Part shown: one piece after another, positions 1 through 37,727 of the stretch
Layout of the letters: every line of letters begins with the position of its first letter
Numbering within the stretch: the stretch's first letter is position 1
Source: Caldicellulosiruptor saccharolyticus DSM 8903
GTDB lineage: Bacteria; Bacillota; Thermoanaerobacteria; Caldicellulosiruptorales; Caldicellulosiruptoraceae
DNA: 64,000 nucleotides
Reading direction: 5' to 3'
NCBI RefSeq assembly: GCF_000016545.1
Contig: NC_009437.1
Coordinates: 909,501-973,500, forward strand
The notes under the pieces: model-generated
Told to the model about the DNA's origin: nothing
Databases searched by the model: none
The model's input: the letters and a program-made list of their open reading frames with translations, nothing else
Position numbers and translations under genes: made by a program

Positions 1-1356
1 GAATATCAACGAATAAATATCCTCATCAGTTAAATTATTTTTAGACTTAATTATTCCTTTTTCTAATGCTTTCTCCAATATCTTCTCTCTGTCAATTCCC
101 CTCCCATCATCTTGAATTGTTATTAGTACCTCTGAATTAGTACTTTTTGCGTGAATATAAAGATTTCCCTCTTCAGCTTTCCCCTGTTTTCTTCTCTCAT
201 CAGGTGTTTCTATCCCATGGTCTATGGCATTTCTTACTAAGTGTATGAGTGGGTCTGTTATGTGCTCAATCATCATTCTGTCAAGTTCAGTTTCTTCTCC
301 AGTAACGTAAACAGTTACTTTCTTATGGAGCTTTTCAGACACTTCAAGAGCGACCCTTCTTAACCTTTGGAATGTGTTCGAGAGAGACACCATTCGCATA
401 GACATTGCTATTTCTTGGAGTTCGTTTATTACTCTTGAAACTTTTGAGTAAGATTTTTTAAAGTCCTCCGAAGCAATTCCAAGTGATTCTACACTTAGAA
501 CCAATCCTGAAAAGTTGATTAAAAGTTCGCCTATTAAGTCTATTATTTTGTCAACTTTTTCAACATTAACGTTGATAATTTTTTGCCCGAGATTGGTATT
601 TCCACCTCCCAATTTGGAACCATTTTGAGAGAACTCTTCGTTAGACATGTTATCTGCAAATTCAATTTCTATATTAGATAAATAAAGAACATCATCAAAA
701 AGCTGAAAAACTTCATCTTTTTCAAGTACAGTTTCTATTACTAATTCGAATCCCTTTTTTTGTATTACATCTGCTGTGTTTGGGTCATTTTGTATATTCT
801 TTGGAGTATAATCAATAATATCACCCACATCTTTTAACTTCCAAATAACACCATAAGCTCTTACATTTTCCATGCCTGCTCCATCTTCAAAAAATACTTT
901 AATACGATACTTCTTTTTAGTTTTTTCAATATTGTCCACAGAGGCTGTGTTTTGATTTTCATTGATATTTTCTATTAACTGATCGATTAATTTCTGAGCA
1001 GTGCGGGAAGCAGAAAAATCTGTAGTTTCAATTGAGTCAATGTCGAGATTTAAGCAGTCTATAACTTTTAAAAAACAATTGATAAGCTGGTCAACAATAT
1101 TAGGTGTTATATGTATTGAGTTTAATTTTACAAATAAATCCTCTGCCTTGTGGCATACTTGGCTTATATCTGAATATTTCATAGCTGCTGATGATCCTTT
1201 GAGTGTATGGAAAATGCGCATAATGTCATTGTTTACATTTTTGAGTATTAACTTTCTTTCTTTAAGACAAATGAATATGTTTTCTAAGTCGTTAAGAAGT
1301 TGTTTTGACTCCGCAATGAAAATTTCAAATAGTGGGTCTTTAAACTTTTCTTCCAT
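1..1356 (-). CDS. cheA: Chemotaxis histidine kinase CheA, C-terminus beyond window edge
   Basis: Autophosphorylating kinase of a chemosensory array. The reverse strand reads open from an ATG at 1356 (another ATG at 1359) to the window edge. An Hpt domain is visible near residue 50 as HTLKGSSAAM, with the phosphoacceptor His. After a linker and dimerisation helices comes the ATPase N-box DPLIHLVRNAIDHG around nt 200-250, then the residues that precede the usual PGFST segment. The rest of the ATPase domain and the CheW-like domain lie outside. An AAGGTG site precedes the start. It lies 30 bp downstream of the HD-GYP gene, so both are probably one transcript under the c-di-GMP riboswitch. This is a complete-type CheA with its own Hpt, unlike the CheA at 7746. 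Confidence 0.9.
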   Translation of the reverse strand, partial: MEEKFKDPLFEIFIAESKQLLNDLENIFICLKERKLILKNVNNDIMRIFHTLKGSSAAMKYSDISQVCHKAEDLFVKLNSIHITPNIVDQLINCFLKVIDCLNLDIDSIETTDFSASRTAQKLIDQLIENINENQNTASVDNIEKTKKKYRIKVFFEDGAGMENVRAYGVIWKLKDVGDIIDYTPKNIQNDPNTADVIQKKGFELVIETVLEKDEVFQLFDDVLYLSNIEIEFADNMSNEEFSQNGSKLGGGNTNLGQKIINVNVEKVDKIIDLIGELLINFSGLVLSVESLGIASEDFKKSYSKVSRVINELQEIAMSMRMVSLSNTFQRLRRVALEVSEKLHKKVTVYVTGEETELDRMMIEHITDPLIHLVRNAIDHGIETPDERRKQGKAEEGNLYIHAKSTNSEVLITIQDDGRGIDREKILEKALEKGIIKSKNNLTDEDIYSLIF

Positions 1357-1388
1357 CATATCACCTTCTTGCCAGAAAATTCACTGGT

Positions 1389-3056: not shown

Positions 3057-3130
3057 AAGAATTTCAGATCCCTCTCTTCTTTTGTTTTTTCACAAGAGGT
3101 AGAATTACCGACATTAATTTTATTAACTAA

Positions 3131-3163
3131 AAAGGCACCTGACTTGTTTCGCCAGGTGCCTTT
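3131..3163 (-). terminator. Intrinsic terminator between riboswitch and HD-GYP gene
   Basis: An 11-bp perfect stem (3131-3141 with 3153-3163) has an 11-nt loop and is followed on the minus strand by a T5 tract. It lies between the c-di-GMP aptamer and the HD-GYP start, so it is the likely expression platform. A GGCACC upstream (complement of 3176-3181) could pair with the GGTGCC of the 3' arm and act as an antiterminator. That alternative pairing is inference. Confidence 0.8.
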
Positions 3164-3286
3164 CAATATCAAATTGGTGCCGACAAAGTAAAATTTTTAC
3201 ATGATACTCCGTCAAAGAAGCTATATCACCATTTTCACTGAAACTTTTTGTCTTAGCAGCTTATTAACTTTATAATTGTCAGACAC

Positions 3287-3407
3287 CTTGATATATGTTT
3301 CGGCAGCCTGGCGATCATAGGAAAAGGTCCTCTATACCTTTTCCGACAGACCCATGGCTTTGCGCCCCTGCCTTTCGACAGGTTTGCCTTTGTCGACATA
3401 TATCAAG
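3287..3407 (-). promoter_or_regulatory. c-di-GMP-I (GEMM) riboswitch aptamer
   Basis: On the minus strand the sequence shows the hallmark core of class I c-di-GMP aptamers: AGGCAAACC, then a GAAA-capped helix, GGGGCGCAAAGCC, a long second hairpin (GGAAAAGG paired with CCTTTTCC) and GCCAGGCTGCCG. A perfect 12-bp P1 joins 3396-3407 to 3287-3298. It starts a few bases after the predicted transcription start and reads into the HD-GYP and cheA genes. Identification is by recall of the consensus, not by a covariance search, but the match is extensive. Confidence 0.93.
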
Positions 3408-3420
3408 TTTTAACAACTGT

Positions 3421-3450
3421 ATTATACACTCCATTCTCTACTTTTTTCAA
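3421..3450 (-). promoter_or_regulatory. Sigma-A-type promoter for riboswitch-HD-GYP-cheA
   Basis: Minus strand: TTGAAA (3445-3450), 18-bp spacer, TATAAT (3421-3426). The predicted start near 3414 is about 7 nt upstream of the riboswitch P1 stem, which fits a transcript beginning with the aptamer. Confidence 0.75.
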
Positions 3451-3524: not shown

Positions 3525-4011
<487 letters not shown>

Positions 4012-4087
4012 TTAAAGAAACAACAACTTTATGGTATTATATAATAGAAAGCAAAAAAATCTAAGTAACAAAGGAGGTATGAGAGTG

Positions 4088-6040
4088 ATGGAGCTGTCTA
4101 AAATGAAAACGCCGAGAAATCCAGCAAAAGTTAGTTCCCAAGTTAATGAGGCCAACCAATTTCAAAATTTCAATGAGGTTCAAGGTAACAATCCTGGGGT
4201 TTTTGATGCAACAAAGAGGAAAGAAAGAAGAGACGAACTGAGGAGAAATACAATCATTGAAAGACTTGCTGCAACAACGAGCGAGACTCAGGCGGCGGTG
4301 TCGCAGGCTACGCGTAATGTAAATGAGTTACAGGTAGCAGTTCAAGAGATTGCTGCCTCAGCGCAAGAGGCATCCAAAGCAGCTCAAGAATCATTAAGAG
4401 CAATTCAAGAGATTGAAAAGGTAGCGAAGGTTGCGGATGAGAGGACAGGCGAGCTTTTAAATTCCATTACGAACCTTCAAGCACTTATTCAAAGTGTATC
4501 AGATGAGATTGAAGAGATGATCCGTGGGATTGAAGCAGCTGCTCAGGTTTCACTTGAGTCTGCTGAGAACGTTTTACAGCTTGAAAAACAAGCAAATGAA
4601 ATTGGTACTACAGTTCAGGCTGTAATGGAGGTAGCTGACCAGACAAATCTTTTGGCTCTCAATGCAGCAATTGAGGCTGCGAGAGCAGGTAAACATGGTC
4701 GAGGCTTTGCAGTAGTGGCAGATGAGGTAAGAAGCTTAGCGGAAACAACCAACAAAGCTGCTATAGAGATTCAAAGCATTATTGAGGAAATTCAAAGGGA
4801 TGTAAATGTAGTAGCAGAAGACATCAGGGGTGTTGGCACACTTGTGAGAGGAGAAGCTGAAAAAGCAAAAGGTGTTACAGAAGATTTGAGGAAGATAGAG
4901 GATTCAATTAATACGATTGTTGAAGCTATGAAAGAGATAAAGGTTTTGTCCCGCAATATGATGAACGCATCCAGCGAGGTCAGAGGCGGAAGCCAGCAGA
5001 TTGCCGCAGCAGCGGAAGAGGCGGCAGCAGCTACTGAGGAATCAAATGCATCGTTGATTGAGCAGACTAAAGCATTAAATGAAATTAACAACGCGATGAC
5101 CATGCTTGCTGAAATGGCAGATGAACTAAAATCCACCTCTATCACTCAAAAGAATGCAGAGGAACTTGCAGCGGCATCAGCTGAGCTTGCTGCTATGGTA
5201 GAACAGTCCCATAAAGCCAGCTATCAGATTTCTTCAGCACTTGAGCAGATAATGCAAGCGGCAGAAGAACAGGCTGCTGCATGTGAAGAGTCACAGAGAG
5301 CAACAGAGAATCTCAAAAATATGCAGAAAGACATAGTTGAAAGATTAGAAAACACAACGAAACTAGCAAGAGAGCTTCAAGAGATTTTGAGCAAGAATAA
5401 GAAGGATGTTGAAGGTTTAATTGAAGGGGTTGCTCAATCTGTTGAGAAAAACAAACAGTCGTTAGAAAGTGTGAGAGTATTGGAGAAAAGGATAAGAAAT
5501 ATTGAAAAGATAATAGATACTATTTCCAATGTCACAACAAAAATAGATTTACTGTCATTGAATGGTTCTATTGAGGCAGCGCGCTCTGGAAAATATGGAA
5601 AAGGATTCGCCGTTGTGGCAGGAGACATAAAACAGCTTGCTCAGCAGTCAAGTGACGCAATAGGAAATATAAAAGAAATGGTTAGAAACATTAATGACCA
5701 AGTAAGAATTGTATATGAAGATGTAGAAACTGCTGTAAAAACGGCGATTGAGGAAAATGAAAAAGCCCAAAAAATAACTTTTTCGCTTGAGAGAGTGAGA
5801 GGAGCTACTGAAAAAGTTATTACAGAAGGTAATCAACTGCTTGCAAGTGCCCAGGATGCAGAAAGTGCCTTGACTCAGATAGCAGCTGGAACAGTACAGA
5901 TTGCAAAGGGTGCAGAAGAAGCATCGCAAGCGGCCCAGAGTGCAGCAACTCAAGCTCAGGAACAGCTCAAGGCAATTTCCCAAATTGCCGAGGCTACACA
6001 AGAGATTGCAAATCTTGCAGAGGAGCTTAAAAATGTTTGA
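4088..6040 (+). CDS. Soluble methyl-accepting chemotaxis protein with two signalling tips
   Basis: Chemoreceptor-like protein of about 650 residues without any membrane segment. It is almost all heptad-patterned helix, rich in Ala, Glu and Gln. Two separate receptor hairpin tips are visible. One is near residue 190 ([10 protein letters not shown], then [16 protein letters not shown]). The other is near residue 487 ([10 protein letters not shown], then [16 protein letters not shown]). Ordinary MCPs have one tip, which binds CheA and CheW. AAGGAGG at 4071-4077 favours GTG 4085 or ATG 4088; an upstream frame from 4031 lacks a better SD. First gene of the chemosensory operon, preceded by the A48 tract. 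Likely a cytoplasmic input or array-organising protein; the signal is unknown. Confidence 0.9.
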
Positions 6041-6093
6041 TTAGTTTATAAAAAAATTGAAGCAACCTTTTTAAGAAAGGAGGAAAGATTTAA

Positions 6094-6633
6094 ATGATTG
6101 ATGAAGAAAGAGTAAAATTATTAAAAGCAACAGAGGAGGAATTTGAAGAAGAAGATGAGTTAACAGACGAGAGACAACTTGTGATTTTTAAATTAGGGGA
6201 AGAAGAATACGGTGTTGATATAATGCAGGTCAAAGAGATTATTAGAACAACAAATATAACAAAGATACCACAAGTACCATCTTTTGTAGAAGGGATAATA
6301 AGTCTAAGAGGTGAGATATTACCTATAATAGATATGCGTAAAAAATTTAGTTTACCTGAGAAAGAAAAAACGAGACAAACACGAATTCTTGTTATAAATC
6401 TTGATAACATGACCATAGGTGGAATTGTTGACGAAGTAACAGAAGTGCTTAGAATTCCAAATGATGCTATAACTCCACCACCACCTGTAATTAAAGGAGT
6501 TAATACAGAGTATTTACAGGGGGTTGGGCAGATTAACGGAAGAATAATAATTCTTCTTGACATGTCCAAGATATTGACCTCTAACGAGATAATACAAATT
6601 GAGGAATTGAAAGAAGAACTGATGAACAAGTAA
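6094..6633 (+). CDS. cheW: CheW coupling protein
   Basis: Scaffold that links receptors to CheA in the array. The 179-residue protein has a 30-residue acidic N-terminal extension, then a full CheW domain: QLVIFKLGEEEYGVDIMQV, the VKEIIR segment, IPQVPSFVEGIISLRG and ILPIIDMRKKF, and a second half with GGIVDEVTEV. The SD AAAGGAGG precedes the ATG. It sits 53 bp after the double-tip receptor gene. Confidence 0.95.
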   Translation: MIDEERVKLLKATEEEFEEEDELTDERQLVIFKLGEEEYGVDIMQVKEIIRTTNITKIPQVPSFVEGIISLRGEILPIIDMRKKFSLPEKEKTRQTRILVINLDNMTIGGIVDEVTEVLRIPNDAITPPPPVIKGVNTEYLQGVGQINGRIIILLDMSKILTSNEIIQIEELKEELMNK

Positions 6634-6686
6634 AGATACCATTAGTTTGTGCAAAATATATTCAAAAATAGGGGTTTGAACTTAGG

Positions 6687-7718
6687 ATGGTCAGAGTTTT
6701 GGTGGTAGAAGATTCTCCACTTATGAGAAGGGTTTTAATTAGAATATTACAAAAAAGCCCTTTTATAAAGGTAATAGACTATGCGACAAATGGCGAGGAG
6801 GCAATCGAAAAGGTTGCCTCCTTGCGTCCTAATGTAGTAACAATGGATGTTGAAATGCCTGTTTTAAATGGCATTGAGGCACTAGAAAAAATAATGCAAA
6901 CATGCCCAACGCCTGTTGTAATGATATCAACTCTTACCCAAAAGAGTGCTGAAGTTACTCTGAAGGCTTTGAGTTTGGGTGCAGTGGATTTTATTCCCAA
7001 GCCATCTAATTATTCAAGTGAGCTTGAAAACGTTGAAAATGAAATTATAACTAAAGTTTTGAATGCAGCAAAAGCAAATGTGTTTTTTAAAAAAGGTAAT
7101 TCTTCAGCAAAACGAATAACCTCACAACTAACAAAGAAACCGTTAGTAAGACCACATGCAGTATTTATAGGGGTTTCGACAGGTGGCCCTAAAACATTGG
7201 GTGAAATAATTCCATATATAAAGCCTGACATAGGTGTGCCAATATTTATTGTGCAACACATGCCACCAAATTTTACAAAGCAGCTTGCTGTGACTCTTTC
7301 GGAAAGGAGTTCACTTTTTATTAAAGAAGCTGAAAAAGGTGAGATTATAAAACCTAATACAGTTTACATAGCACCAGGTGGCAAACAAATGGAGATAAAT
7401 GTTATTTCTAACAAAGCTTTTATTAACATAGTGGATGGACCACCTGACTTGATCTATAAGCCTTCTGTTGATTATGTGGGCTTTTCGCTTGCACAATATT
7501 ACAAAGACAGGCTTGTAGCAATAATGCTTACCGGTATGGGTAATGATGGTGCAAAAGCGTTTGCGTTTATCAAAAAGCTTGGTGGTTTTATAATAGCGGA
7601 AGATCAATCAACCGCGGTTATATTTGGCATGCCCAAGGCGGTAATTGACCAAGGTATTGCTAACTTGATTTTGCCTTCGACAAGTATCGCAGATACTATA
7701 AATTCCATATTTGCATAA
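6687..7718 (+). CDS. cheB: CheB protein-glutamate methylesterase/response regulator
   Basis: Demethylates receptor glutamates when phosphorylated. A receiver domain occupies residues 1-125 with phosphoacceptor D54 (VTMDVEMP) and the K of FIPKPS. After a linker, the catalytic domain at about 155-343 shows the triad S164 (GVSTGGPKT), H191 (VQHMPPNF) and D287 (LTGMGNDGAKA). The length of 343 is normal for CheB. With CheR encoded at 10914, the operon has a full adaptation pair, so its receptors are probably methylated. Confidence 0.96.
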   Translation: MVRVLVVEDSPLMRRVLIRILQKSPFIKVIDYATNGEEAIEKVASLRPNVVTMDVEMPVLNGIEALEKIMQTCPTPVVMISTLTQKSAEVTLKALSLGAVDFIPKPSNYSSELENVENEIITKVLNAAKANVFFKKGNSSAKRITSQLTKKPLVRPHAVFIGVSTGGPKTLGEIIPYIKPDIGVPIFIVQHMPPNFTKQLAVTLSERSSLFIKEAEKGEIIKPNTVYIAPGGKQMEINVISNKAFINIVDGPPDLIYKPSVDYVGFSLAQYYKDRLVAIMLTGMGNDGAKAFAFIKKLGGFIIAEDQSTAVIFGMPKAVIDQGIANLILPSTSIADTINSIFA

Positions 7719-7745
7719 AATAGATTATCGAGGCAGGGTTGAGAG

Positions 7746-9398
7746 ATGAATTATGAAGAAAGAAAGTTTTTGATGGAACTTTTGGACGAGGGGAAAAAGA
7801 TATATAAGATAGAATTTCTACTAAAGCCCGAAGGGGAGTTCAAAGCACCTACAGTAGCAAAGATATATAAAAATCTGAGTATAAAATACAATATTTTTCT
7901 CACAATTCCAGATATGCAACAAGAACATATAGGCGAGGATATAAGTGAATACTTATTCTTTGTTGAAGGAGATATTGACATAAATACTTTGCGACAAGAT
8001 GTGGAAGAGGCTTGTAAAGATGAGGAAGTTATTGACATTTTCTTTATTCAAAAGCTATTGAAAGAAGATTTAGAGGTTACTGAAGTAATAGGAACAAATG
8101 ATATTCAGCAAAAAGAAGAAATTCAAACTTATTCCAATACAGAGCAAATAAAAGAGTTGAGAACAAAAGAAAATGAACAAGAGAACAAAAAAATTGATTC
8201 TGTGAGAATTGATATTTACAAATTAAATAATCTTACAAATCTTGCAGGTGAACTTATTACTTGTAAATCTCAACTAAGTCAAATATTGAATGGTTTTAAA
8301 GAGATAAACGTAAAAGATAAAGAGATTAGTAATTTGATTTCGAACCTTGAAAAAGGAATTTTAAGGTTAGAAAGGATTTCTTTTGAGCTTCAGGAAGGAA
8401 TAACAAGTTTGAGACTTTTACCCATAAAGAATGTATTTAGAAAACTTCCGAGAATTGTACGAGAAGTTGCTCAAAAAGAAGATAAAGAGGTAGAACTAAT
8501 TATAAAAGGTGAGGAAACAGAGATTGATAAACTTATATTAGAAAAGATTACTGACCCTTTAGTACATATAGTAAGAAATTGTGTAAATCATGGAATTGAA
8601 AAGCCAGAAGAGAGGATTGCCAAGGGCAAAAAACCTCAAGGGAGAATTACAATAGAAGCCTATGCAGAGGGTGAGCATATTTATATCTCCATTACGGATG
8701 ATGGAAGAGGTATTGACATAGATAAAATAAAAGCAAAAGCTTTGGAAAAGGGTATTGTTACAAGTGATGAGCTTCTGAGTATGTCTGAAAAAGATGTAAT
8801 TGACCTGATTTTCTTACCAGGTTTCTCTACAGCTGATAGAGTTGATGATATTGCTGGCAGAGGAGTTGGAATGGACGTTGTCAAAAAGAATATTGCAGAG
8901 CTAAAGGGTGAAATAAAGGTTGAGACACAAAAAGATAAAGGTACAAGCTTTTTAATAGTTATCCCACTCACTGTTGCTATAATAAAGACATTATTGGTTT
9001 TGGCCGGTGAAAGATTGTATCTTCTACCGCTTGAAAAAATAATTGAGACAGTAAAGATTAATAAAAACTTGATAAAATCAATTACAGGTAAAAAAATATA
9101 CAGCATCAAAGGAGAAATAATTCCGTTCTTTAGTCTTAATGAAATACTCGGAAATGAAGAAGATGAAGATACCAGAAATTACTATTTTGGGATAATAGTG
9201 AGATATAACAACAGCAAAGTAGGAATAATAGTGGACAAGCTGATAGGTGAATATGATGTTGTTGTAAAGCCTTTAGACCAATTTGTAGGGAATATAAAAG
9301 GAATAGTTGGTTCTACAATCTTGGGTGATGGCAGGGTTGTCTTGTTGCTTGAACCAGAACAATTGATTGGAAGAATTGTTTGCAAAGCTAAACAATGA
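7746..9398 (+). CDS. cheA: CheA-type histidine kinase lacking the Hpt (P1) domain
   Basis: Kinase core of the array. The 550-residue protein opens with a P2-like domain (LLDEGKKIYKIEFLLKPEG) and has no HxxKG phosphotransfer motif anywhere. From about 155 come dimerisation helices (NLAGELITCKSQL). Then comes the ATPase domain with N-box DPLVHIVRNCVNHG, G1 DDGRGID, PGFSTADRV and G2 GRGVGMDVV. A CheW-like domain ends the protein. The usual CheA is about 650-700 residues, and the missing part corresponds to P1. A stand-alone Hpt fused to CheW is encoded 2.8 kb downstream (12176), so phosphorylation is probably in trans. Its stop overlaps the HEAT gene start by 4 bp. Confidence 0.93.
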   Translation: MNYEERKFLMELLDEGKKIYKIEFLLKPEGEFKAPTVAKIYKNLSIKYNIFLTIPDMQQEHIGEDISEYLFFVEGDIDINTLRQDVEEACKDEEVIDIFFIQKLLKEDLEVTEVIGTNDIQQKEEIQTYSNTEQIKELRTKENEQENKKIDSVRIDIYKLNNLTNLAGELITCKSQLSQILNGFKEINVKDKEISNLISNLEKGILRLERISFELQEGITSLRLLPIKNVFRKLPRIVREVAQKEDKEVELIIKGEETEIDKLILEKITDPLVHIVRNCVNHGIEKPEERIAKGKKPQGRITIEAYAEGEHIYISITDDGRGIDIDKIKAKALEKGIVTSDELLSMSEKDVIDLIFLPGFSTADRVDDIAGRGVGMDVVKKNIAELKGEIKVETQKDKGTSFLIVIPLTVAIIKTLLVLAGERLYLLPLEKIIETVKINKNLIKSITGKKIYSIKGEIIPFFSLNEILGNEEDEDTRNYYFGIIVRYNNSKVGIIVDKLIGEYDVVVKPLDQFVGNIKGIVGSTILGDGRVVLLLEPEQLIGRIVCKAKQ

Positions 9399-10897
9399 GA
9401 AGGAGTGAAAAACCAAGGATGAATTCCGCTGAAGAATTACTTAATATGCTAAGCTCAGATGACTATGTGATTCAAAAAGGAGCGATAGAGAATGCATTAC
9501 ATTTTAAAGAGCCTGTAGTAATTGATAAATTGATAGAACTTTTTATAAGCACTAATAACAAAATGATAGAAGAGCATATTGCAAAAGCATTAAAACAAAT
9601 AGGAGGAGAATATACAGTCGAGAAACTATTAAGGCTTTTAGACCATGATGAAGCAAGAGTAAGGACTTTTGCATACGAGGTCTTGTGCGAAATAGGATCA
9701 CATAATCTTCACGCTATCATAGCTGAAGCAGAAAATCCGGATAAGAACGTTAGAAAATTTATAGTTGATATATTAGGCGCTTTAAAAAACAAAGATGCAG
9801 TGCCAGCTTTACTAAAAAGGTTATCAGACGATGATGTAAATGTTATTCAAGGTGCGGTTGAAGCATTGGGGAACATCGGAGATGTTGAGGCACTAAAGAA
9901 AGTAGTGGAGTTTTTACCTTCGGCTCATTTGTGGGTGCAGTGGACAATCATTGAGAGCATAAAAAAAGTAAACGATGGTCAATTAGTTTCACAAGTTTTG
10001 AATCTGCCATGGGAAATTGAAAATGTCATATTTGATAGTATATTTGATATGGTAAGGGAAAGTGGTAATGTTGAAAATGTAGAGGATGCAATAAAGTTAT
10101 ATTTAAAACTTTCAACTCAGTTAAGGATAAAAGTGTTAGATACTATACACTCTATTTATCTAAGATCTGATAAGAGGAAACTTGAAGGTATTCTTACTGA
10201 TAGCAAGCTCTTTGATGAGATAAAAGGTATATTAATATATGGAACAAATTTACAAAAATATACAATCCTTAAATATCTTGGAGAGATAGAAGATGAAGAT
10301 TTTATTAACTTTATTAAAAACAAAGTGTTCGATGAAACGATTGAGATGAATATTATAAAGCTCTATTATACAGCGAATACTTTGAAAAAAAGAGAGTTGA
10401 TCAAGGTGTTCAAATATTTTAATAGACCAAAATTAGTGGAGCACATTAAAGAAATATTTAAAGGTGATGACAATATATTGAAGCTAAGTGCTTTGAGGAT
10501 TATGAGGAGAAATGGTATCAGGGAGGTAGCAGATATGTTACCTGAGGTTATGAAAGAAGAAGAACTTTTATCTGAGGTATTGAAGACTATCATTGAGCTT
10601 GATTTAAAGGAGCTATTCGAACAAGTTTACGACGAATATTTTAAAGCTGAAAGTGAAGATAAAAAACTTTTGATGCTTGAGTGTATGGTTGAACTAAGAC
10701 CAGATGATCCCAAAGTTATGGCTCTTATTAAAGATGAACTTACAAATGAATCGTTGGATGACAGCCAGATACTTAAGCTGTTACAGTTAATAGGAAAGAC
10801 TAACAATATGGAAGTATTTAGGGCACAACTTGAGTACTTGGTTAACCACCCTAATATGGAAGTTTCTATCGAAGCTCAAAGCCTTTTAACTAAATAG
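9395..10897 (+). CDS. HEAT-repeat protein of the chemosensory operon
   Basis: A 500-residue alpha-solenoid. HEAT/PBS-lyase-type repeats are clearest at residues 40-190, for example DKNVRKFIVDILGALKNKDA and VIQGAVEALGNIGDVEALKK. The rest is helical, with weaker repeats. There is no catalytic motif, signal peptide or membrane segment. The start overlaps the cheA stop (ATGA); an ATG at 9419 is an alternative. Translational coupling to cheA suggests it binds CheA or an array partner as a scaffold. That role is inference. Confidence 0.8.
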   Translation: MRRSEKPRMNSAEELLNMLSSDDYVIQKGAIENALHFKEPVVIDKLIELFISTNNKMIEEHIAKALKQIGGEYTVEKLLRLLDHDEARVRTFAYEVLCEIGSHNLHAIIAEAENPDKNVRKFIVDILGALKNKDAVPALLKRLSDDDVNVIQGAVEALGNIGDVEALKKVVEFLPSAHLWVQWTIIESIKKVNDGQLVSQVLNLPWEIENVIFDSIFDMVRESGNVENVEDAIKLYLKLSTQLRIKVLDTIHSIYLRSDKRKLEGILTDSKLFDEIKGILIYGTNLQKYTILKYLGEIEDEDFINFIKNKVFDETIEMNIIKLYYTANTLKKRELIKVFKYFNRPKLVEHIKEIFKGDDNILKLSALRIMRRNGIREVADMLPEVMKEEELLSEVLKTIIELDLKELFEQVYDEYFKAESEDKKLLMLECMVELRPDDPKVMALIKDELTNESLDDSQILKLLQLIGKTNNMEVFRAQLEYLVNHPNMEVSIEAQSLLTK

Positions 10898-10913
10898 CTC
10901 GAGGAGGAAAAAT

Positions 10914-11762
10914 ATGTTAACAGAAATTGTTCTTAACACTCATGAATGGAATACTGTGAGAGACTTTATATACCAAACAACAGGCCTATATTTTTCAGAC
11001 GACAAAAAGAGCTATATTCAAAAGAGATTAAAAATTGCAATGGATAATTTAGGTATAGCTGATTTTTGGGGATATTTAAAAAAACTCGAAACAGATAAAA
11101 ATGTTTTCAACAGGTTGTTAGAGCTAATTACAACGAATGAAACCTATTTTTTTAGAGACCTGGCCCAGCTTGATATGTTTTCAAAGGATGTTTTGCCTGA
11201 GCTTTTGAATAGGAAAGCTGCCCAAAAAGGTGACTTTAGATTAAAAATCTGGAGTGCAGGGTGCTCAACTGGTGAAGAACCATATACAATTGCAATCATT
11301 TTAAAAGAACGACTTGAGTATTTTGATGATTGGGATATTGAGATATTGGGAAGTGACATTTCAGAAAGAGTATTAAAGTTTGCTCAAGAGGCTGTGTATA
11401 TGCCAAGGTCTTTAAAGGATGTTCCAGAGTATATTCGGTTAAAATATTTTGAATATAATCCTTCACAGAAGGTGTATAAGCTCAAGGATAAAATAAAGAG
11501 ATTGGTCACGTTCAGATATTTAAATCTATATGACGAACATAAAATGAGGTTGATGAGAAACTATGATGTGATATTTTGCAGAAACGTCCTTATTTACTTT
11601 GATGAAGAATCCAGAAGAAAAGTGGTTGAATATTTCTATGATGCATTGAATCCTGGTGGTTATATCTTTTTGGGACATTCCGAGAGTATATTGCGAATTA
11701 CAAAAGCGTTTGAGATTGTTTATTTTGAGAATAATATAGCTTTTAGAAAACCTATAGCTTAA
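10914..11762 (+). CDS. cheR: CheR chemoreceptor methyltransferase
   Basis: Transfers methyl groups from S-adenosylmethionine to receptor glutamates. The 282-residue protein has the N-terminal helical domain, then TTNETYFFRD, the SAM-binding WSAGCSTGEEPYTIAI, a conserved VIFCRNVLIYFDEE and the C-terminal GGYIFLGHSES. The length is typical. The SD GAGGAGG is 7 bp before the ATG. Confidence 0.96.
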   Translation: MLTEIVLNTHEWNTVRDFIYQTTGLYFSDDKKSYIQKRLKIAMDNLGIADFWGYLKKLETDKNVFNRLLELITTNETYFFRDLAQLDMFSKDVLPELLNRKAAQKGDFRLKIWSAGCSTGEEPYTIAIILKERLEYFDDWDIEILGSDISERVLKFAQEAVYMPRSLKDVPEYIRLKYFEYNPSQKVYKLKDKIKRLVTFRYLNLYDEHKMRLMRNYDVIFCRNVLIYFDEESRRKVVEYFYDALNPGGYIFLGHSESILRITKAFEIVYFENNIAFRKPIA

Positions 11763-11788
11763 AAAATTATGGAGGGTGGAAATGAATT

Positions 11789-12160
11789 ATGCCAAAGATT
11801 TTAGTGGTTGATGATTCGCCTGTTGTAAAGAAAATTGTTACAACAACTCTTGTAAAAAAGGGATTTGAAGTAAGAGAAGCTTTAGACGGTGTGGCTGCGC
11901 TAGAGGTTCTACTAAATGAAAAAATTGATCTTGTTATTACAGACCTAAATATGCCAAAGATGGATGGCTTGCAGCTAACACGAGAAATAAGAAAAAATCC
12001 TGCTTATAAGAGAATTCCTGTTATAATGCTAACCACAAATCCTTCAGAGGAGCAAAAAGCCTTGGAGGCAGGGGCAAATCTGTATTTGAAAAAACCTGTC
12101 ACAAGTGAGGAATTGATTTCACATGTTCAGAAATTTTTGGGCATTGAAGTAAAGAGTTAA
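11789..12160 (+). CDS. cheY: CheY-like single-domain response regulator
   Basis: A 123-residue receiver domain only. It shows the acidic pocket VVDDS at residues 6-10, phosphoacceptor D52 (VITDLNMPKMDG), the conserved T of IMLTT and the K of LKKPV. It is followed 15 bp later by the Hpt-CheW gene, its probable phosphodonor partner along with CheA. Whether it acts on a flagellar motor, pili or another output cannot be told from this window. Confidence 0.94.
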   Translation: MPKILVVDDSPVVKKIVTTTLVKKGFEVREALDGVAALEVLLNEKIDLVITDLNMPKMDGLQLTREIRKNPAYKRIPVIMLTTNPSEEQKALEAGANLYLKKPVTSEELISHVQKFLGIEVKS

Positions 12161-12175
12161 GAAGGTGGGATTATT

Positions 12176-13180
12176 ATGTCTGATCAATTGTTTAGTAGTT
12201 CAGAACTTGAAGAGCTAAAAAAAGAGTTTGTTGTTGAGACGTATGAACATCTTGAGAACGCACAAGATGCTCTTTTGCAGCTTGAGAAGGACCCAGGCAA
12301 TTACGAAATCCTAAACTTTCTATTCAGGGAGATTCATTCAATAAAGGGTGGAGCAAATTTTTTGGGGTTGCAGGATATAATTAATGTATCTCACGAAATG
12401 GAGAGCGTCTTAGACAAGATGCGAAATTATGAGATATATCCTTCGAGTGATGTTGTTAATACTATTTTTGAAGGTATTGATATTATTAAGAAGTTAGTAA
12501 ATAATCTGGAGAATAATACAGAAGATAATATTGATCACATTTCCTATATAGAACGGTTAAGATTGATAAATAGCTTAAATCAACCACCAATTGAAAATGA
12601 TAATAGAAAATTAGAAAACAAAGAAGGCTTTAAGGCGTTTGGGGAATTTCAAACTCCAGAAATGTTAACAGATCCTAAAAGGAAAGATAGTGAATTTGAA
12701 AATTCTATCTACAGCGGGAATGATAATAGTATTGATGAAAACTCTTACTTAATGATTGTTTCGTTCGAATATGGAAATGTTACATATGGAATTGAAGTTG
12801 ACTTTGTAAAGGAGATAGTAAAACCAACAGACATTACATCTATACCTTTTGCGAATGACCATATAATGGGCCTTATGAACTTGCGGGGAGATGTTGTAAC
12901 AGTAGTTGATTTTGGAAAACTCTTGGGAGTTAAAAAAAGTGAAGCAGTTCATCATAAAGTTTTGATAATTAATTACCGTAATTTAACGTTTGGACTTTAT
13001 GTTGATAATGTTAAAGAGGTGATAAGCATACTTCCTGAGAATATTAAAGAACCAAATGTGGATCTTATTTCTTTAAGTGATATTTTAAAAGGAGTAGTTG
13101 AGAAAAATGGTGAGTTTATTCAGTTAATAGATCTTCAACAATTAGTAGACAAGTCAAGAGAAGATGCGGAGTTGGTATAA
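12176..13180 (+). CDS. Hpt-CheW fusion protein (detached CheA P1 module)
   Basis: Residues 1-125 form an Hpt domain with phosphoacceptor H54 in FREIHSIKGGANFLG. Residues about 190-325 form a CheW domain (MIVSFEYGNVTYGIEVDFV, MGLMNLRGDVVTVVDFGKLL). A polar linker joins them. There is no kinase domain. It supplies what the CheA at 7746 lacks, and the CheW domain would dock it in the same array. By domain logic CheA phosphorylates H54 in trans, and the CheY proteins at 11789 and 14200 take the phosphate. Split CheA proteins are known in Rhodobacter; the Hpt-CheW arrangement here is a distinct layout. Confidence 0.9.
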   Translation: MSDQLFSSSELEELKKEFVVETYEHLENAQDALLQLEKDPGNYEILNFLFREIHSIKGGANFLGLQDIINVSHEMESVLDKMRNYEIYPSSDVVNTIFEGIDIIKKLVNNLENNTEDNIDHISYIERLRLINSLNQPPIENDNRKLENKEGFKAFGEFQTPEMLTDPKRKDSEFENSIYSGNDNSIDENSYLMIVSFEYGNVTYGIEVDFVKEIVKPTDITSIPFANDHIMGLMNLRGDVVTVVDFGKLLGVKKSEAVHHKVLIINYRNLTFGLYVDNVKEVISILPENIKEPNVDLISLSDILKGVVEKNGEFIQLIDLQQLVDKSREDAELV

Positions 13181-14173
13181 ATGGAATGGTATCTAATTGT
13201 GATTATTGGGTTGTTAGTGATAACCATTTGTGAAGGATTATTGCTTGTAAAAAGGTCAAATGAAATAAATAAAATGATTGAATTTGTAAAATCGGAGAAG
13301 TATACAAATAGTATATCAGATACTTTTATTAGTGCCTATAAAAACAGAGTTGAATTAATAGAACAGAATTTTAAAGAGGAAATACTAAAGGTAAAAACTG
13401 AAAATGATTTCTTAAAAGAGGAATTAACAAAAATAAAAAAATTATCCTATGAGAAAGAAAGAGAGTTATTGGATCAATTAAAAACTGTTTTTGAGTCAAT
13501 TAAAGAATTAAAAGAGGCATTTAAGATAGTAGTTGATGAAATTAATAAGTCTTTGTTTACAAATTTAGAAGATATGAATCAACGGTCAAATAAAATCGGG
13601 GAGGATATTAAAAAAGGTAAAGAGCAAGTATCTAAGTCAGGAGAGGATATAAACGAACTATTAACCACAATACAAGGGTTATCAGAAAATGTTAGGAGTT
13701 TGTCAACACATATAGAGAGTATAAGCAAAATTACACAGATTATACACAATATAGTAAAAGAAATTTCTTTTATATCATTAAACGCTCAAATTGAGGCACG
13801 TAAGATAGAGAATTCTACAACGTTCAGCTTATTAGCATCTGAGATGAGAAGGCTTGCTGAAAGTGGCAAACAAAGCCTCAAAGAAGCAAATGATATTATT
13901 ACGAATATTATTACGAATATTAATTTAAATTGTGAACAAATAAGTGGCTTTGTTGACAAGGTTGAAGAGTTGAAAAAAAGGACTCATAAAATAACTGATG
14001 AGTTTGAATCTGTTTACCAGCTTGTTAGTTCTGTGTTGGATTATCAGGCTAAACTTTCAGAGCAAATAAAACAACATTTTGCAGGTATTCAAGAGATGGT
14101 CAGCATATTAGAGAATGTTTACAATGAAGGTATTAAGATTGTAGAAAATGCATCATTGATGGAAAAACAATAG
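13181..14173 (+). CDS. Membrane-anchored MCP-like protein with degenerate signalling tip
   Basis: The 330-residue protein has one N-terminal membrane segment (residues 4-22, LIVIIGLLVITICEGLLLV). Coiled coil follows to the end. A short receptor hairpin has the tip ISLNAQIEARKIE, then a degraded form of the [16 protein letters not shown] segment (LLASEMRRLAESG). There is no periplasmic sensor domain. The ATG directly abuts the TAA of the Hpt-CheW gene, so the two are probably translationally coupled. It may tether the array to the membrane or act as a minimal receptor. Confidence 0.8.
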   Translation: MEWYLIVIIGLLVITICEGLLLVKRSNEINKMIEFVKSEKYTNSISDTFISAYKNRVELIEQNFKEEILKVKTENDFLKEELTKIKKLSYEKERELLDQLKTVFESIKELKEAFKIVVDEINKSLFTNLEDMNQRSNKIGEDIKKGKEQVSKSGEDINELLTTIQGLSENVRSLSTHIESISKITQIIHNIVKEISFISLNAQIEARKIENSTTFSLLASEMRRLAESGKQSLKEANDIITNIITNINLNCEQISGFVDKVEELKKRTHKITDEFESVYQLVSSVLDYQAKLSEQIKQHFAGIQEMVSILENVYNEGIKIVENASLMEKQ

Positions 14174-14199
14174 AAGCTTTTTATGAAGTGAGGTTTGAT

Positions 14200-14658
14200 A
14201 TGAGAAAAGTAACTTTCCTTATTGTAGATGACTCACCTATGTGGAGAAAGGTAATAAAAAGATTTATTGAAGAAAAACTTGGTGGCAATATAGTTGGAGA
14301 GGCAAAGGATGGGATTGAAGCAATAGTGCTTTATAAAAAGTTAAAGCCTGATATCGTGACGATGGACATCGAAATGCCAAATTTAGACGGCATAAAGGCA
14401 CTTGAGGAGATATTAAATTTTGACAAGGATGCAAAAGTAATTATGATAAGCTCAAAAGGAGAAGAAGATGTAGTAAGAAAGGCTCTTTTAAAAGGTGCTC
14501 AGGATTTTATACGGAAAGATTTAAAACTTGAGAAGTGGGTAAAGAGATTTGAGAAGGTTATTAGAGAAATTAAAGGGAAAAAAGAGAATATGACATATAA
14601 TGTGTTTTCTGTTATTATCAGTTATATTAACAAACTTAAAAACAATAATAAGTCTTAA
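14200..14658 (+). CDS. CheY-like response regulator
   Basis: Receiver domain of 152 residues: VDDSP pocket, phosphoacceptor D56 (VTMDIEMPNLDG), S of MISSK, K of FIRKD, and about 25 extra basic residues at the C-terminus. The closest visible relative is the CheB receiver rather than the CheY at 11789. The start is ATG 14200 behind GTGAGG; a GTG 12 bp upstream is an alternative. It overlaps no gene but ends 25 bp before the GGDEF/EAL gene, to which it may pass the signal. Confidence 0.9.
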   Translation: MRKVTFLIVDDSPMWRKVIKRFIEEKLGGNIVGEAKDGIEAIVLYKKLKPDIVTMDIEMPNLDGIKALEEILNFDKDAKVIMISSKGEEDVVRKALLKGAQDFIRKDLKLEKWVKRFEKVIREIKGKKENMTYNVFSVIISYINKLKNNNKS

Positions 14659-14683
14659 ACAGCAAACAACAGGTGATGGTTAT

Positions 14684-16525
14684 ATGAGTTTTGGAAATGA
14701 GAAAGGTCAAGATATAATTCATAGAAAAGAGGTAGAGTTTTTTGTAAAAAATTTGAAGGATTATTTCAGTAACATAAATAAGTATGTAGTGATTTTATGG
14801 GATGAAGAAGGAATTATTTTGGAATTTAAAGAGAATGGTGGCAACTTACTGGGCTATACACCTGAGCAGATTGAAGGAAAAAAATGGCCAGATATCTTAA
14901 CGGACGGCAAAGACAAAGAACAAACTACAGAAATTAACAAAAAATTAGTAAATAGTAAGATAGTGAGATACTATATAAATTCCATAAAAGATGTAAATGG
15001 TACAAGCAAAATATTTTTATGGTGTAACTTGAAATTAGAGAACGTTCAAAGTGACAAGAAAATTTTTCTTTCAGTAGGTTTTAATTTGGATTCAATAGAC
15101 AATCTAAAAGAAAAAACTGATGAAAGTAAATTTGAGCTTGATACCCTCAATGAAAAAAAAGAAAACCTCGAATTCAAAGTAACTAAGGACGATTTAATTT
15201 TAAAGCAGAAAGATGATACAATAAGAGATTACAAGAGCAAATTAGAATTTTTAGCTTTTTATGATGAACTTACTGGATTGCCAAATAAAAACTCACTTAT
15301 TCGATGGTTGAATTTAAAGGTCAGTCAAATGGACTGTATTGACACATATTTGATATTTCTTGAAGTAAGAGATTTAGAAAAATTAAATGTCACGTATGGA
15401 TATGATTTAGTTGATGAATTAATTATACATATTAGCAAAAGAATAAAGGATATAGCAGGGGAAGGGAACAAAGCTTTTAAAATAGGATTTGATAGATTCG
15501 CAATAATTTGTAAAAGCGAGAACATTTCTGATTTTATTGAAAGGATGCTATCACAACTTTTGCTACCCTACAATGTGAATGGAAATTTAATAAGAGTAAA
15601 TTTCAATATAGGAGCTGCTCAAATTGAAAATTCAAATGAAGCCGCAGCAAACCTTATGAGAAGATGTGACTTAGCTTTAATCAAAGCGAAGGAGGAAGGA
15701 TTAAATGAATATGTGATATTTAAGCCGTCGATAGAAATTCAAACTTTAAAAGAGGGAATACTTGAAAGAGAACTTCGAAATGGAATAGAGTTAAATGAGT
15801 TTATTGTATTTTATCAACCGTTTGTAAAATTAGAAAATGATAAAATTTGTGGTTTTGAAGCTCTACTAAGATGGTATTATCTAAAGTCAGTATTTGTATC
15901 GCCTTTAGAATTTATTCCAGTGGCTGAAAAGTATGGCTTGATTATTGATTTAGGGAATATGGTATTAAAACAATCGTTGAAAGCTGGCAAAATTTTAAAG
16001 AAATATTATGATGATGAGTTTACAATTTCTATAAATATTTCTCCGAAACAATTTATTGACAAAAGATTTGTCAAAAATACAATTGAAATTCTGGAAAATG
16101 AAAAATTGCAGGACATACGGTTACGGTTTGAAATAACTGAGAAAGTGGCAATTGAAAATATTGACTATACAATCAGGATTATGAATGAATTTAAAAAATA
16201 CAATGTAACGTTTGCATTAGATGATTTTGGCGTGGAGTATTCGTCCTTAAACTATTTAAGGAAGTTACCAATAGAAGCTGTTAAAATTGATAAATCATTT
16301 GTTCAAGATATAAATGACCATGATACATATTTCATAGTTGAAACAATTGTTAAGCTTTGCAAAAAACTAAATTTAAAAACTGTTATAGAAGGAGTTGAAA
16401 CACAAAGGCAATATCAGATAATAAAAGAACTTGGTTGTGACTATGCACAAGGTTATTTTATAGCTAAGCCATTACCTATCAATGAATTGATAAATCTTGT
16501 CGGAAAATATAAAATATTGGAGTAG
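14684..16525 (+). CDS. PAS-GGDEF(degenerate)-EAL c-di-GMP phosphodiesterase
   Basis: A PAS-like sensor lies at residues 25-125 (LLGYTPEQIEGKKWPDIL), then a coiled coil. The GGDEF domain has YDELTGLPNK intact, but its active site reads GFDRF instead of GGDEF, so diguanylate cyclase activity is unlikely. The EAL domain is intact: FEALLRW, NISPKQF, EITE, DDFG, KIDKSF, EGVET and QGYF. Expected activity is cleavage of c-di-GMP to pGpG, perhaps with GTP as allosteric ligand of the GGDEF relic. ATG 14684 has an AGGTGAT SD; an upstream frame from 14600 overlaps the cheY gene and is less likely. Last gene of the operon. Confidence 0.9.
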   Translation: MSFGNEKGQDIIHRKEVEFFVKNLKDYFSNINKYVVILWDEEGIILEFKENGGNLLGYTPEQIEGKKWPDILTDGKDKEQTTEINKKLVNSKIVRYYINSIKDVNGTSKIFLWCNLKLENVQSDKKIFLSVGFNLDSIDNLKEKTDESKFELDTLNEKKENLEFKVTKDDLILKQKDDTIRDYKSKLEFLAFYDELTGLPNKNSLIRWLNLKVSQMDCIDTYLIFLEVRDLEKLNVTYGYDLVDELIIHISKRIKDIAGEGNKAFKIGFDRFAIICKSENISDFIERMLSQLLLPYNVNGNLIRVNFNIGAAQIENSNEAAANLMRRCDLALIKAKEEGLNEYVIFKPSIEIQTLKEGILERELRNGIELNEFIVFYQPFVKLENDKICGFEALLRWYYLKSVFVSPLEFIPVAEKYGLIIDLGNMVLKQSLKAGKILKKYYDDEFTISINISPKQFIDKRFVKNTIEILENEKLQDIRLRFEITEKVAIENIDYTIRIMNEFKKYNVTFALDDFGVEYSSLNYLRKLPIEAVKIDKSFVQDINDHDTYFIVETIVKLCKKLNLKTVIEGVETQRQYQIIKELGCDYAQGYFIAKPLPINELINLVGKYKILE

Positions 16526-19750: not shown

Positions 19751-19776
19751 AAGTAAATAAAGTAAAAAGTGGTCAG

Positions 19777-19888
19777 AAAAGAGCAAAAAGTTTGCTCTTT
19801 TCGGGCCTGAGCAAAATCAGGCAGCAGGAGAGAAAAGCCTGCGGGACCCATGTTTTTATTAAAACATGAGTCTTCGCAGGATTTTTTT
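19777..19888 (+). ncRNA. Structured leader with antiterminator/terminator switch before the CDF gene
   Basis: Elements in order: a perfect 11-bp hairpin (19777-19787 with 19791-19801); a 6-bp hairpin GCCTGA/TCAGGC (19805-19822); GCAGG (19824-19828) able to pair with CCTGC (19838-19842); and a terminator whose 5' arm uses the same CCTGCG. The two pairings exclude each other, as in an attenuator. It ends 60 bp before a cation-efflux gene, so a metal-responsive riboswitch is possible. Short stretches resemble the NiCo/czcD consensus, but the four-way junction is not evident. The first hairpin could simply close the upstream operon. Confidence 0.5.
19838..19888 (+). terminator. Intrinsic terminator upstream of the CDF gene
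   Basis: Interrupted stem: CCTGCG/CGCAGG outside, GAC/GTC in the middle, CATGTTTT/AAAACATG inside, followed by T7 (19882-19888). Confidence 0.8.
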
Positions 19889-19947: not shown

Positions 19948-20805
19948 ATGGATAAGCAGGGAGCTGCACTTTTGTCAGTTTTTTCAAACACCACATTGAT
20001 TTTATTTAAACTGATTGCAGGAGTAGTAATGGGGTCGGTCTCTGTTATTTCAGAGGCTATTCACTCAGGGATTGACCTATTGGCAAGTATTATTGCATAT
20101 TTTTCAATAAGACAGGCAAAAAAACCTGCAGATAGCGACCATCCTTTTGGGCACGGCAAATTTGAAAACGTCTCGGGTGCCTTTGAGGCCATTTTGATAT
20201 TCTTGGCAGCTACTCTGATAATTTATGAAGCCATAAAGAAAATAATACACAAGGGGGAGATTGAGAGTATAGAGGCAGGTATTGGGGTTATGCTAATTTC
20301 AGCCATTGTCAATCTTTTTATATCTTCAAAACTTTTTAAGATTGCAAAAAAAACCGACTCTGTTGCTTTAGAAGCTGATGCAATGCATCTTTTTACTGAT
20401 GTATTTACTTCATTTGGTGTATTCTTAGGACTTATTGTAATCAAATTTACACATATATACATCTTAGACCCAATAATAGCTATAATTGTTGCACTGATGA
20501 TAATAAAGGCTTCTGTAGAGCTTACGCAAAAAGCTTTGTGTGACCTTGTTGACAAGAGTCTTCCTCAAGAGGAGGTAAAAGTGATAGAAGATATCATCAA
20601 GAAATACTCGCAGGTGACAAGTTATCACAAGCTCAGAACAAGAAAGAGCGGCGATAGAAGAGAGATTGATGTTCATATACGAATGGAGAACTCAACAACT
20701 TTGATTGATGCACACAATCTTTGTAATATGATTGAGGATGAGATTAAAAATGCCCTGCCAAACTCTTATATAACAATTCATATAGAGCCAGAGGATGAAA
20801 AGTGA
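19948..20805 (+). CDS. Cation diffusion facilitator family efflux protein
   Basis: Proton- or cation-coupled exporter of divalent metals in the cytoplasmic membrane. The 285 residues have about six membrane helices, with metal-site residues in HSGIDLLAS (TM2) and DAMHLFTDVFTS (TM5), the DSDHPFGHGKFE loop, and a cytoplasmic C-terminal domain with Asp/His-containing strands. The length is normal. The SD GAAAGGAG lies before ATG 19948. The terminator-bearing leader just upstream suggests attenuation by its substrate or a related signal. Confidence 0.93.
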   Translation: MDKQGAALLSVFSNTTLILFKLIAGVVMGSVSVISEAIHSGIDLLASIIAYFSIRQAKKPADSDHPFGHGKFENVSGAFEAILIFLAATLIIYEAIKKIIHKGEIESIEAGIGVMLISAIVNLFISSKLFKIAKKTDSVALEADAMHLFTDVFTSFGVFLGLIVIKFTHIYILDPIIAIIVALMIIKASVELTQKALCDLVDKSLPQEEVKVIEDIIKKYSQVTSYHKLRTRKSGDRREIDVHIRMENSTTLIDAHNLCNMIEDEIKNALPNSYITIHIEPEDEK

Positions 20806-36419: not shown

Positions 36420-37727
36420 AGACTTGTCAAGAATTTTGTGTTTCCATTTCATAGCGTATATTGTAGAGCTGTAATATATTGTAACTACATTTTTTAAGAA
36501 TAGGTACTCCGTTTTTCCACTTGCCCCGACGCAAGTTTTCTCTTTGTAAATATATGTTTATCTCTAAAACTTCTACAGATTGAAAATAACCACCGGAGTT
36601 TATTCTTATCTTTTCAATCATACTGTTTACGCTTTCTACAGCATTAGTAGTATAAATGTACTTTCTTAAATCTTCAGGATACCTCATATGTGCAAGATAG
36701 AACTCTGCTTTTTCGCAAATACCTTTTATGAATCGAGGATATTTTGAGGAGTATTGCTCACAAAGAAGTTTGAACTTTGAAATAGCTTCGTCAAAATCAG
36801 CAGAGGAAGTTCTTAGTTTATCAAGCTCTTTGTTGAAAACGGAAGCATCATCTTTTGCCATATGTTTTCTGACATTGCGTTGAAGGTGAACAAAACATAG
36901 TTGATGGTCGGCAAGGGGATAAGCGAGTCTAACAGCATCGATAATGCCTGGAAAATCATCGCTTACAACTATTAAGACTTTTTTAAGACCTCTTGTAATT
37001 AAGTCGTCAAAGACTCTCATCCAATCGGCTTTGTTTTCTTTGCCGAAGAAAGTGTAGATACCGAAGATATCTTTTTTGCCTTCTAAATCAATGCCAAGCA
37101 CGACATAGCAAGTAGCTTGTTTAACTTTTGAGTTATCTTTAATTTCGCAATGGTAACCGTCAATGATAAGAGCAAAAGCACTTTCAGGAAGTTCTCTTTG
37201 TTTGAAAAGTTGAAGCTCGTTTTTAAGATCGTTTTTGATTTTTTCGATTTCGTCTTCAGAATAAGGCAGATTCATGCTTTTAAGAGTTTGGACAAGAGAA
37301 CTTTCTGAGTAACCATTGGCGACTAAAGACATGAGCAGGTCAGTGTATGAGCTGTCAACCCTTTTGTAGCGGTCAGGGAGAATGGAAGGTCGAAAGTTAC
37401 CAGAGCGTGTGCGAGGAACAGAAATTTCAAGGCTGCCAACAGGTGTTGCAAGTTTTCTGCCGTAAAAACCATTGCCTTTATCGTTTTCGTTTTTAGCAAG
37501 GTAAACAGTTCTTTCTGATAACATAAAGCAATCGAGCAAGTTTTCCAAAAGCTGTTTTAAAGCTGGGCGAGTAGGATCATCTTTGGAGCAATACATATTT
37601 AATACTTGCTCGATAGCCATATTTTTAGCGGTTTCAAAAATTTCATTTTTCTCCATAATCGTGAGCCCCCCTTTGGTGATTATTTCAACACTAATTATAC
37701 AGTGGACACAATTTTATTTTAACTCCC
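36420..37727 (-). mobile_element. IS256-family element, copy A
   Basis: 1,308 bp. Inverted ends GGGAGTTAAAATAAAATTG and AGACTTGTCAAGAATTTTG share an imperfect repeat ending in TGTGT(T)TCC. Perfect 9-bp target duplication GAGCATTTG (36411-36419 and 37728-37736). Identical to copy B in every stretch compared, opposite orientation. Confidence 0.93.
36427..37656 (-). CDS. IS256-family transposase, copy A
   Basis: A 409-residue DDE transposase of the Mutator type. Catalytic residues appear as D166 (LIIDGYHCE), D233 (VVSDDFPGI) and E341 (NAVESVNSMIEKI), with the family C/H motif HQLCFVHLQRNVRKHM between the second D and the E. Intact and identical at protein level to copy B, so both are probably recent and active. 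SD GGGGGG before the ATG. Confidence 0.95.
   Translation of the reverse strand: MEKNEIFETAKNMAIEQVLNMYCSKDDPTRPALKQLLENLLDCFMLSERTVYLAKNENDKGNGFYGRKLATPVGSLEISVPRTRSGNFRPSILPDRYKRVDSSYTDLLMSLVANGYSESSLVQTLKSMNLPYSEDEIEKIKNDLKNELQLFKQRELPESAFALIIDGYHCEIKDNSKVKQATCYVVLGIDLEGKKDIFGIYTFFGKENKADWMRVFDDLITRGLKKVLIVVSDDFPGIIDAVRLAYPLADHQLCFVHLQRNVRKHMAKDDASVFNKELDKLRTSSADFDEAISKFKLLCEQYSSKYPRFIKGICEKAEFYLAHMRYPEDLRKYIYTTNAVESVNSMIEKIRINSGGYFQSVEVLEINIYLQRENLRRGKWKNGVPILKKCSYNILQLYNIRYEMETQNS

Follow-up and report, generated by a model that had tools for sequence, protein, structure and literature searches.

We identified a class I c-di-GMP riboswitch on the minus strand of the window (the whole 64,000-nucleotide stretch analysed here) that, judging from predicted folds, is probably a transcriptional OFF switch of an operon encoding an HD-GYP domain protein, CheA and CheW (Table 1). 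The first-pass annotation of this DNA had proposed a class I aptamer on this strand, and the covariance-model check was positive: RF01051 (c-di-GMP-I) matched at 3397-3298(-) with 76.8 bits, above the gathering cut-off of 35. Using the residue numbering in the excerpt of PMC9049102, CGCAAAGC supplies C46 and A47 of the pocket, GGC supplies G20, G21 and C22, and the first C of UGCC is C92. Pocket bases G20, A47 and C92 are thus all present in the window aptamer; according to the same excerpt, A47 is the base stacked between the two guanines of the ligand. The RNA would therefore be expected to bind c-di-GMP.

Table 1. Positions of the riboswitch parts, the operon genes and the end of the opposite arm in the window.
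Feature	Coordinates	Strand	Basis or remark
Sigma-70-like promoter TTGAAA-18-TATAAT	3421..3450	-	11/12 consensus bases
P1 5' strand CUUGAUAUAUG (extended P1)	3397..3407	-	Folding
Class I c-di-GMP riboswitch aptamer	3298..3397	-	Covariance-model matches; complete
Switching strand UCGCCAGG-C-UGCC (aptamer P3/J 3' strand)	3302..3314	-	Pairs with terminator 5' arm
P1 3' strand CAUAUAUCAAG, shared with antiterminator	3287..3297	-	Folding
Spacer stem prolonging the antiterminator	3166..3294	-	Folding; contains GGCACC
GGCACCUGGCGA, terminator 5' arm and loop edge	3149..3160	-	Partner of switching strand
Intrinsic terminator hairpin and U tract	3129..3163	-	Minimum-energy fold
HD-GYP domain protein, 555 aa	1389..3056	-	HD_5 at residues 162-328
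CheA (Hpt, P2, dimer, HATPase, CheW)	1..1359	-	First 453 of 651 aa; runs past the window
GGDEF-EAL protein, end of opposite arm	14600..16525	+	GGDEF motif degenerate; EAL motifs look intact

The promoter and the terminator claimed by the same annotation were both recovered. The promoter is close to consensus, but a scan of the region returned five promoter-like sites against a chance expectation of 4.6. The terminator hairpin and its U tract are part of the minimum-energy fold. A rule-based terminator scan of the region detected none, in our opinion because the U residues of the tail pair into the stem.

Folding identified the switching strand (3314-3302) as the competitor for the terminator 5' arm (3160-3149). 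The two strands form 12 pairs with one bulge at -22.6 kcal/mol; shuffled downstream sequence gave -11.9 ± 2.2 kcal/mol, and 0 of 200 shuffles were as good as the window duplex. The antiterminator is prolonged by a spacer stem (3294-3288 with 3172-3166, 3287-3284 with 3179-3176, and 3282-3276 with 3186-3180) that is unique to the window copy among the copies compared, the others having shorter spacers. As a cellulase and a tapirin encoded in the own genome point to Caldicellulosiruptor as host, the RNA was also folded at 70 °C. Before the terminator 3' arm is included, the antiterminator ensemble was favored over the aptamer at 37 °C (-88.7 versus -81.2 kcal/mol, a gap of 7.5) and at 70 °C (-35.3 versus -30.1 kcal/mol, a gap of 5.2). 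In the full-length transcript the terminator was preferred (-102.5 versus -96.1 kcal/mol at 37 °C, -42.3 versus -40.0 kcal/mol at 70 °C), and the aptamer helices coexisted with it in the minimum-energy fold; aptamer plus terminator came to -101.3 kcal/mol, versus -102.6 kcal/mol for the free ensemble. These energies describe secondary structure only; ligand, tertiary contacts and kinetics lie outside the model. In a scan of the growing transcript at 37 °C, the P1 probability stayed at 0.92-1.00 up to 250 nt, the antiterminator reached 1.00 at 260-270 nt, and the terminator reached 1.00 at 280 nt. The order of aptamer, antiterminator and terminator was unchanged at 70 °C.

The predicted folds thus contain both a terminator and an antiterminator that is mutually exclusive with the aptamer, and on paper the element is predicted to be a kinetic OFF switch. 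Without ligand, once the polymerase has passed about 3150, strand 3314-3302 would leave the aptamer and pair with the emerging 3160-3149; in the window copy the pairing of the P1 3' strand would prolong this antiterminator. The terminator would then not form in time, and the operon would be transcribed. With c-di-GMP bound, the aptamer would keep its 3' strand, the terminator would form, and transcription in the cell would be expected to stop before the HD-GYP gene. This order of events, together with the same design elsewhere in the genus, indicates that c-di-GMP should turn the operon OFF.

A search of the genus found 30 copies of the riboswitch, four in the own genome and 26 in 11 other species. 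We analyzed 29 of them (the four own copies and 25 of the 26 from other species, one G011 riboswitch being left out). In 26 of these 29, nothing downstream paired better with the aptamer 3' strand than the terminator 5' arm, with duplex energies between -17.4 and -22.6 kcal/mol in copies of this design; the other three (L074, L081 and L087) lack the terminator/antiterminator design. The shuffle test left out L094, whose aptamer motif was not found. The antiterminator beat the aptamer fold in all 26 exact-motif copies at 37 °C and in 21 at 70 °C, where the other five favored the aptamer; in CelA-type copies the enforced register was not the minimum. This fold comparison left out L074, L081, L087, L092 and L093 (no motif) and L094 (regular expression). 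Going by first residues and own-genome annotations, the genes downstream of the genus copies encode tapirin-like, CelA-type and small secreted proteins, and among the ORFs examined matches to the HD-GYP protein or CheA lay solely behind the window copy. In the own genome, class I riboswitches of the same OFF design precede tapirin (L011 6001-6090; gene at 6287-8245; PDB 6n2b match, E 5.9e-88) and CelA (L011 9668-9757; gene at 10295-15625), and the genome encodes a GH9-CBM3-GH48 cellulase. Some 540 nt, which include another hairpin, separate the CelA riboswitch from the listed ORF downstream of it. In L074 and L087 we noted, by eye, a repeat of the aptamer 3'-side sequence near the start codon, and the sequence suggests that these copies are translational switches.

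The loop from aptamer to terminator spans 140 nt in the window copy as against 35-78 nt in the 25 other copies of the design, so switching could be slower. This long spacer might also mean that the switch, as a recent duplicate, has decayed or always terminates. An insertion sequence (IS) element with a transposase has split the methyl-accepting chemotaxis protein (MCP) gene downstream of cheW (L009 6902-8039, genome about 906902-908039); it is flanked by 11-bp direct repeats GAAGTACTTTT at L009 6902 and 8029 and has inverted ends TTGTTGAATAAA. The excerpt of PMC6200980 records that duplicated class I riboswitches of C. difficile, Cdi-1-4 and Cdi-1-5, can be non-functional. We nevertheless consider both decay and constant termination highly unlikely: no copy has a stronger antiterminator than the window copy (L080 equals it at -22.6 kcal/mol), the promoter and pocket bases are preserved, and a new stem formed by the spacer is continuous with the antiterminator.

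The first-pass annotation had GGCACC competing for the terminator 3' arm, and an ON switch, in which the ligand frees this or another element to sequester that arm, would follow the opposite logic. The element is indeed present at 3181-3176, its complementarity to GGUGCC is perfect, and class I ON examples exist elsewhere, Vc2 of V. cholerae being termed gene-on in the excerpt of PMC12564702. Yet, compared with the free ensemble, forcing the GGCACC pairing carried a penalty of 15.0 kcal/mol at 37 °C (9.0 kcal/mol at 70 °C), and the aptamer fold and terminator are compatible, as described above. We rejected the GGCACC pairing with the terminator 3' arm, the element pairing instead inside the antiterminator/spacer stem, and we regard an ON switch as very improbable.

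A question of ligand arose from the Rfam scan of the window, which matched RF03167 (c-di-GMP-I-GGC) over the same interval, 3397-3298(-) (73.9 bits, E 1.2e-15, cut-off 59). In the own genome, scanned as a single contig of 2,970,275 bases, all four copies of the aptamer passed the RF03167 gathering score, and in the window scan clan competition in cmscan retained RF03167 over RF01051; in bit score, RF01051 was higher in all four copies. That the aptamer is a variant preferring another ligand, for example another cyclic dinucleotide, is hardly credible, for RF03167 has CGCGAAGCC as its consensus at position 47 whereas the window aptamer has CGCAAAGCC, and A47 was present in 32 of 32 sequences compared, with G in none. 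We infer that 'GGC' in the Rfam name stands for G20/G47/C92, and from the sequence the sub-label is probably misleading for the window aptamer. Because A47 is kept throughout, the variant reading was dropped and the window RNA was filed as canonical c-di-GMP-I.

Behind the canonical switch, an HD-GYP gene and then cheA had been proposed, and this order was found, continuing with cheW (164 aa) and a 4HB-MCP fragment. The HD-GYP gene is separated from cheA by 29 nt; cheA overlaps cheW by 4 nt. The HD-GYP protein carries the motifs HDVGK (at 208) and HHEMYDGSGYP (at 263), and matched PmGH (PDB 4mcw, E 2.5e-29) better than a cGAMP-specific HD-GYP enzyme (5z7c, E 7.1e-27). In the alignment to PmGH, seven of eight metal ligands and K225 are kept, whereas D183 is replaced by F170 and E185 by S172. 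According to the excerpt of PMC4159591, D183 is a putative catalytic residue in PmGH; the enzyme lost its activity with D183A and was less active with E185A, and the carboxylate of E185 is missing by nature from one HD-GYP subfamily. Given the retained ligands, the missing D183 and E185, and this subfamily, c-di-GMP phosphodiesterase activity appears plausible. A PilZ-like C-terminal domain suspected by eye is not claimed, as a Pfam search of the protein gave no match even with E values as high as 5, and the structure predicted from the sequence alone had a pLDDT of 37.6, too low to be of use. Named genomes scanned with a lone protein yielded a single remote match (34% across residues 107-336).

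The operon lies in inserted DNA of about 8.5 kb (genome about 904966-913461), which five sister species lack at this site. Three sister loci (L096, L097 and L098) were compared, and L106-L110 cover the five species together, the fetched stretch of L110 covering the cyclase-like gene only. In the sister loci, a threonyl/prolyl-type class II tRNA-synthetase gene and a cyclase-like gene (Pfam names) lead directly to the plus-arm MCP gene. Full-length relatives of the HD-GYP protein (E ≤ 1e-60) were found in seven of 398 sampled genomes of the phylum, including the own genome, where a second gene at 412 kb is 50% identical; G026 and G027 have such relatives as well. An Rfam scan of nine loci around HD-GYP homologues gave no match, and four larger loci gave nothing but a tRNA; on these scans we rejected the reading in which the riboswitch was ancestral to this gene. 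The window riboswitch is a diverged copy of one that is conserved in the genus: it shares 90-91% identity with the copy leading the gene for a 139-aa secreted protein and with the orthologues, and 78-81% with the tapirin and CelA types. With the operon inserted, the HD-GYP relatives devoid of an Rfam match in the loci scanned and this high identity, it is most likely that the riboswitch was copied within the genus and then put in front of a che operon that had been acquired.

An EAL protein stands at the end of the opposite arm, as had been reported, and this arm was present in all three sister loci compared. The proposal that c-di-GMP enzymes bracket the locus is true as an arrangement, but since the EAL arm is common to the genus and the HD-GYP arm is inserted here only, the bracketing looks like an accident of insertion. 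The plus-arm che operon (4031-16525) is conserved in sister species and has a split CheA, namely a 550-aa kinase (7746-9398) without an Hpt match and, apart from it, an Hpt-CheW fusion (12176-13180). The MCP of this operon carries two signalling stretches, and a HEAT-repeat protein sits between. Directly upstream of the MCP gene is a run of 48 A (3962-4009); an orthologous MCP was found in 6 of 12 genus genomes, all six with a long A run at this place (48, 23, 34, 25, 58 and 37). Counts of A runs of at least 25 in the own genome fit the 48-A run and one 26-base run only, and the 48-A run could be a phase-variable promoter element. Elsewhere in the window, ordinary riboswitches precede a cation-efflux gene (NiCo, 19759-19851(+), 44.1 bits; gene at 19948-20805) and the S-adenosylmethionine synthetase gene (SAM, 53458-53597(+), 78.5 bits; gene at 53714-54904), and two Mutator-family transposases that match in length and in Pfam score lie in opposite orientation (36427-37656(-) and 38625-39854(+)).

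The suggestion that c-di-GMP feeds back on its own breakdown had come without a polarity; because the predicted polarity is OFF, the feedback would be positive and not homeostatic, provided that the HD-GYP protein degrades c-di-GMP. Such a loop would reinforce itself, since at low signal the enzyme and the chemosensory kinase would be made and the signal would stay low. If so, c-di-GMP represses its probable degrading enzyme together with a chemotaxis kinase, and the loop would hold a decision and not act as a buffer. In C. difficile, elevated c-di-GMP lowers one phosphodiesterase transcript 5.1-fold (excerpt of PMC6200980), and that locus is absent from the riboswitch table of this paper. A broader proposal is that an OFF riboswitch, a phosphodiesterase and che genes make up a recurrent, independently assembled positive-feedback module giving a bistable motile/sessile decision, here with a riboswitch copied from a secreted-protein gene and with tapirin and CelA in one low-c-di-GMP regulon; we offer it as a doubtful, speculative reading. 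If the OFF switch itself is right, genes for cellulose attachment and cellulase may share the control. The genus set of 26 predicted OFF platforms, which would work at about 70 °C provided that the host has been assigned correctly, could then serve for tests of RNA switching.

The search took in one genome of the same family but of a different genus (G012); there, a class I riboswitch stands at the head of a che/HD-GYP operon (L111: MCP-CheW(x3)-CheB-CheY-CheX-CheX-CheR-CheA-[Cache-GGDEF-HD-GYP]). A second class I riboswitch (L111 14777-14863) lies past this operon, before an odd target, a gene with AddB and PD-(D/E)XK domains. Among 30 class I loci in relatives, 23 could be oriented by motif and seven were left out of the count; a che or HD-GYP gene was among the first two ORFs in five of the 23 (L034, L037, L049, L058 and L059). 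In L058, L059, L051 and L034, part of the downstream hairpin is again the partner of the aptamer 3' strand; no such site was found in L037, and L049, where the motif failed, was left out. These loci suggest that the window is ordinary in kind and that its theme recurs. A literature search returned no paper combining Caldicellulosiruptor, riboswitch and c-di-GMP, and 17 papers combining the first two; for a positive loop of riboswitch and phosphodiesterase, and for Thermoanaerobacter and chemotaxis, titles and abstract beginnings contained nothing on this point.

The window switch is of a known kind, but its placement is slightly unusual. It shares with the c-di-GMP-I (GEMM-I) family, RF01051, the aptamer fold, the pocket bases, the 5' leader position and downstream genes for motility and c-di-GMP turnover; nothing in the window aptamer differs, except that the GGC sub-label also matches without its diagnostic base. 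The own-genome copies before tapirin, CelA and the 139-aa secreted protein belong to the same aptamer family and have the same terminator/antiterminator design, the last being 91% identical to the window copy, but they precede genes for cellulose-binding or secreted proteins whereas the window copy precedes genes for signalling proteins. The operons of L111, L058 and L059 likewise combine a class I aptamer, a compatible OFF platform and downstream HD-GYP and che genes, but their GGDEF-HD-GYP proteins have another architecture and their gene order differs; independent assembly of these operons is likely. A further parallel in design is Cd1/Cdi-1-3 of the C. difficile flgB operon. Class I switches of that species are uniformly OFF according to the excerpt of PMC6200980, and Cd1 switches by an antiterminator built from an aptamer strand according to that of PMC9262584. 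As described in these excerpts, Cd1/Cdi-1-3 resembles the window switch in its transcriptional OFF logic, in an antiterminator drawn from the aptamer, in a terminator compatible with the bound aptamer and in motility genes being off at high c-di-GMP. By contrast, the window switch controls HD-GYP, cheA and cheW and not flagellar genes, and its host is probably a thermophile.
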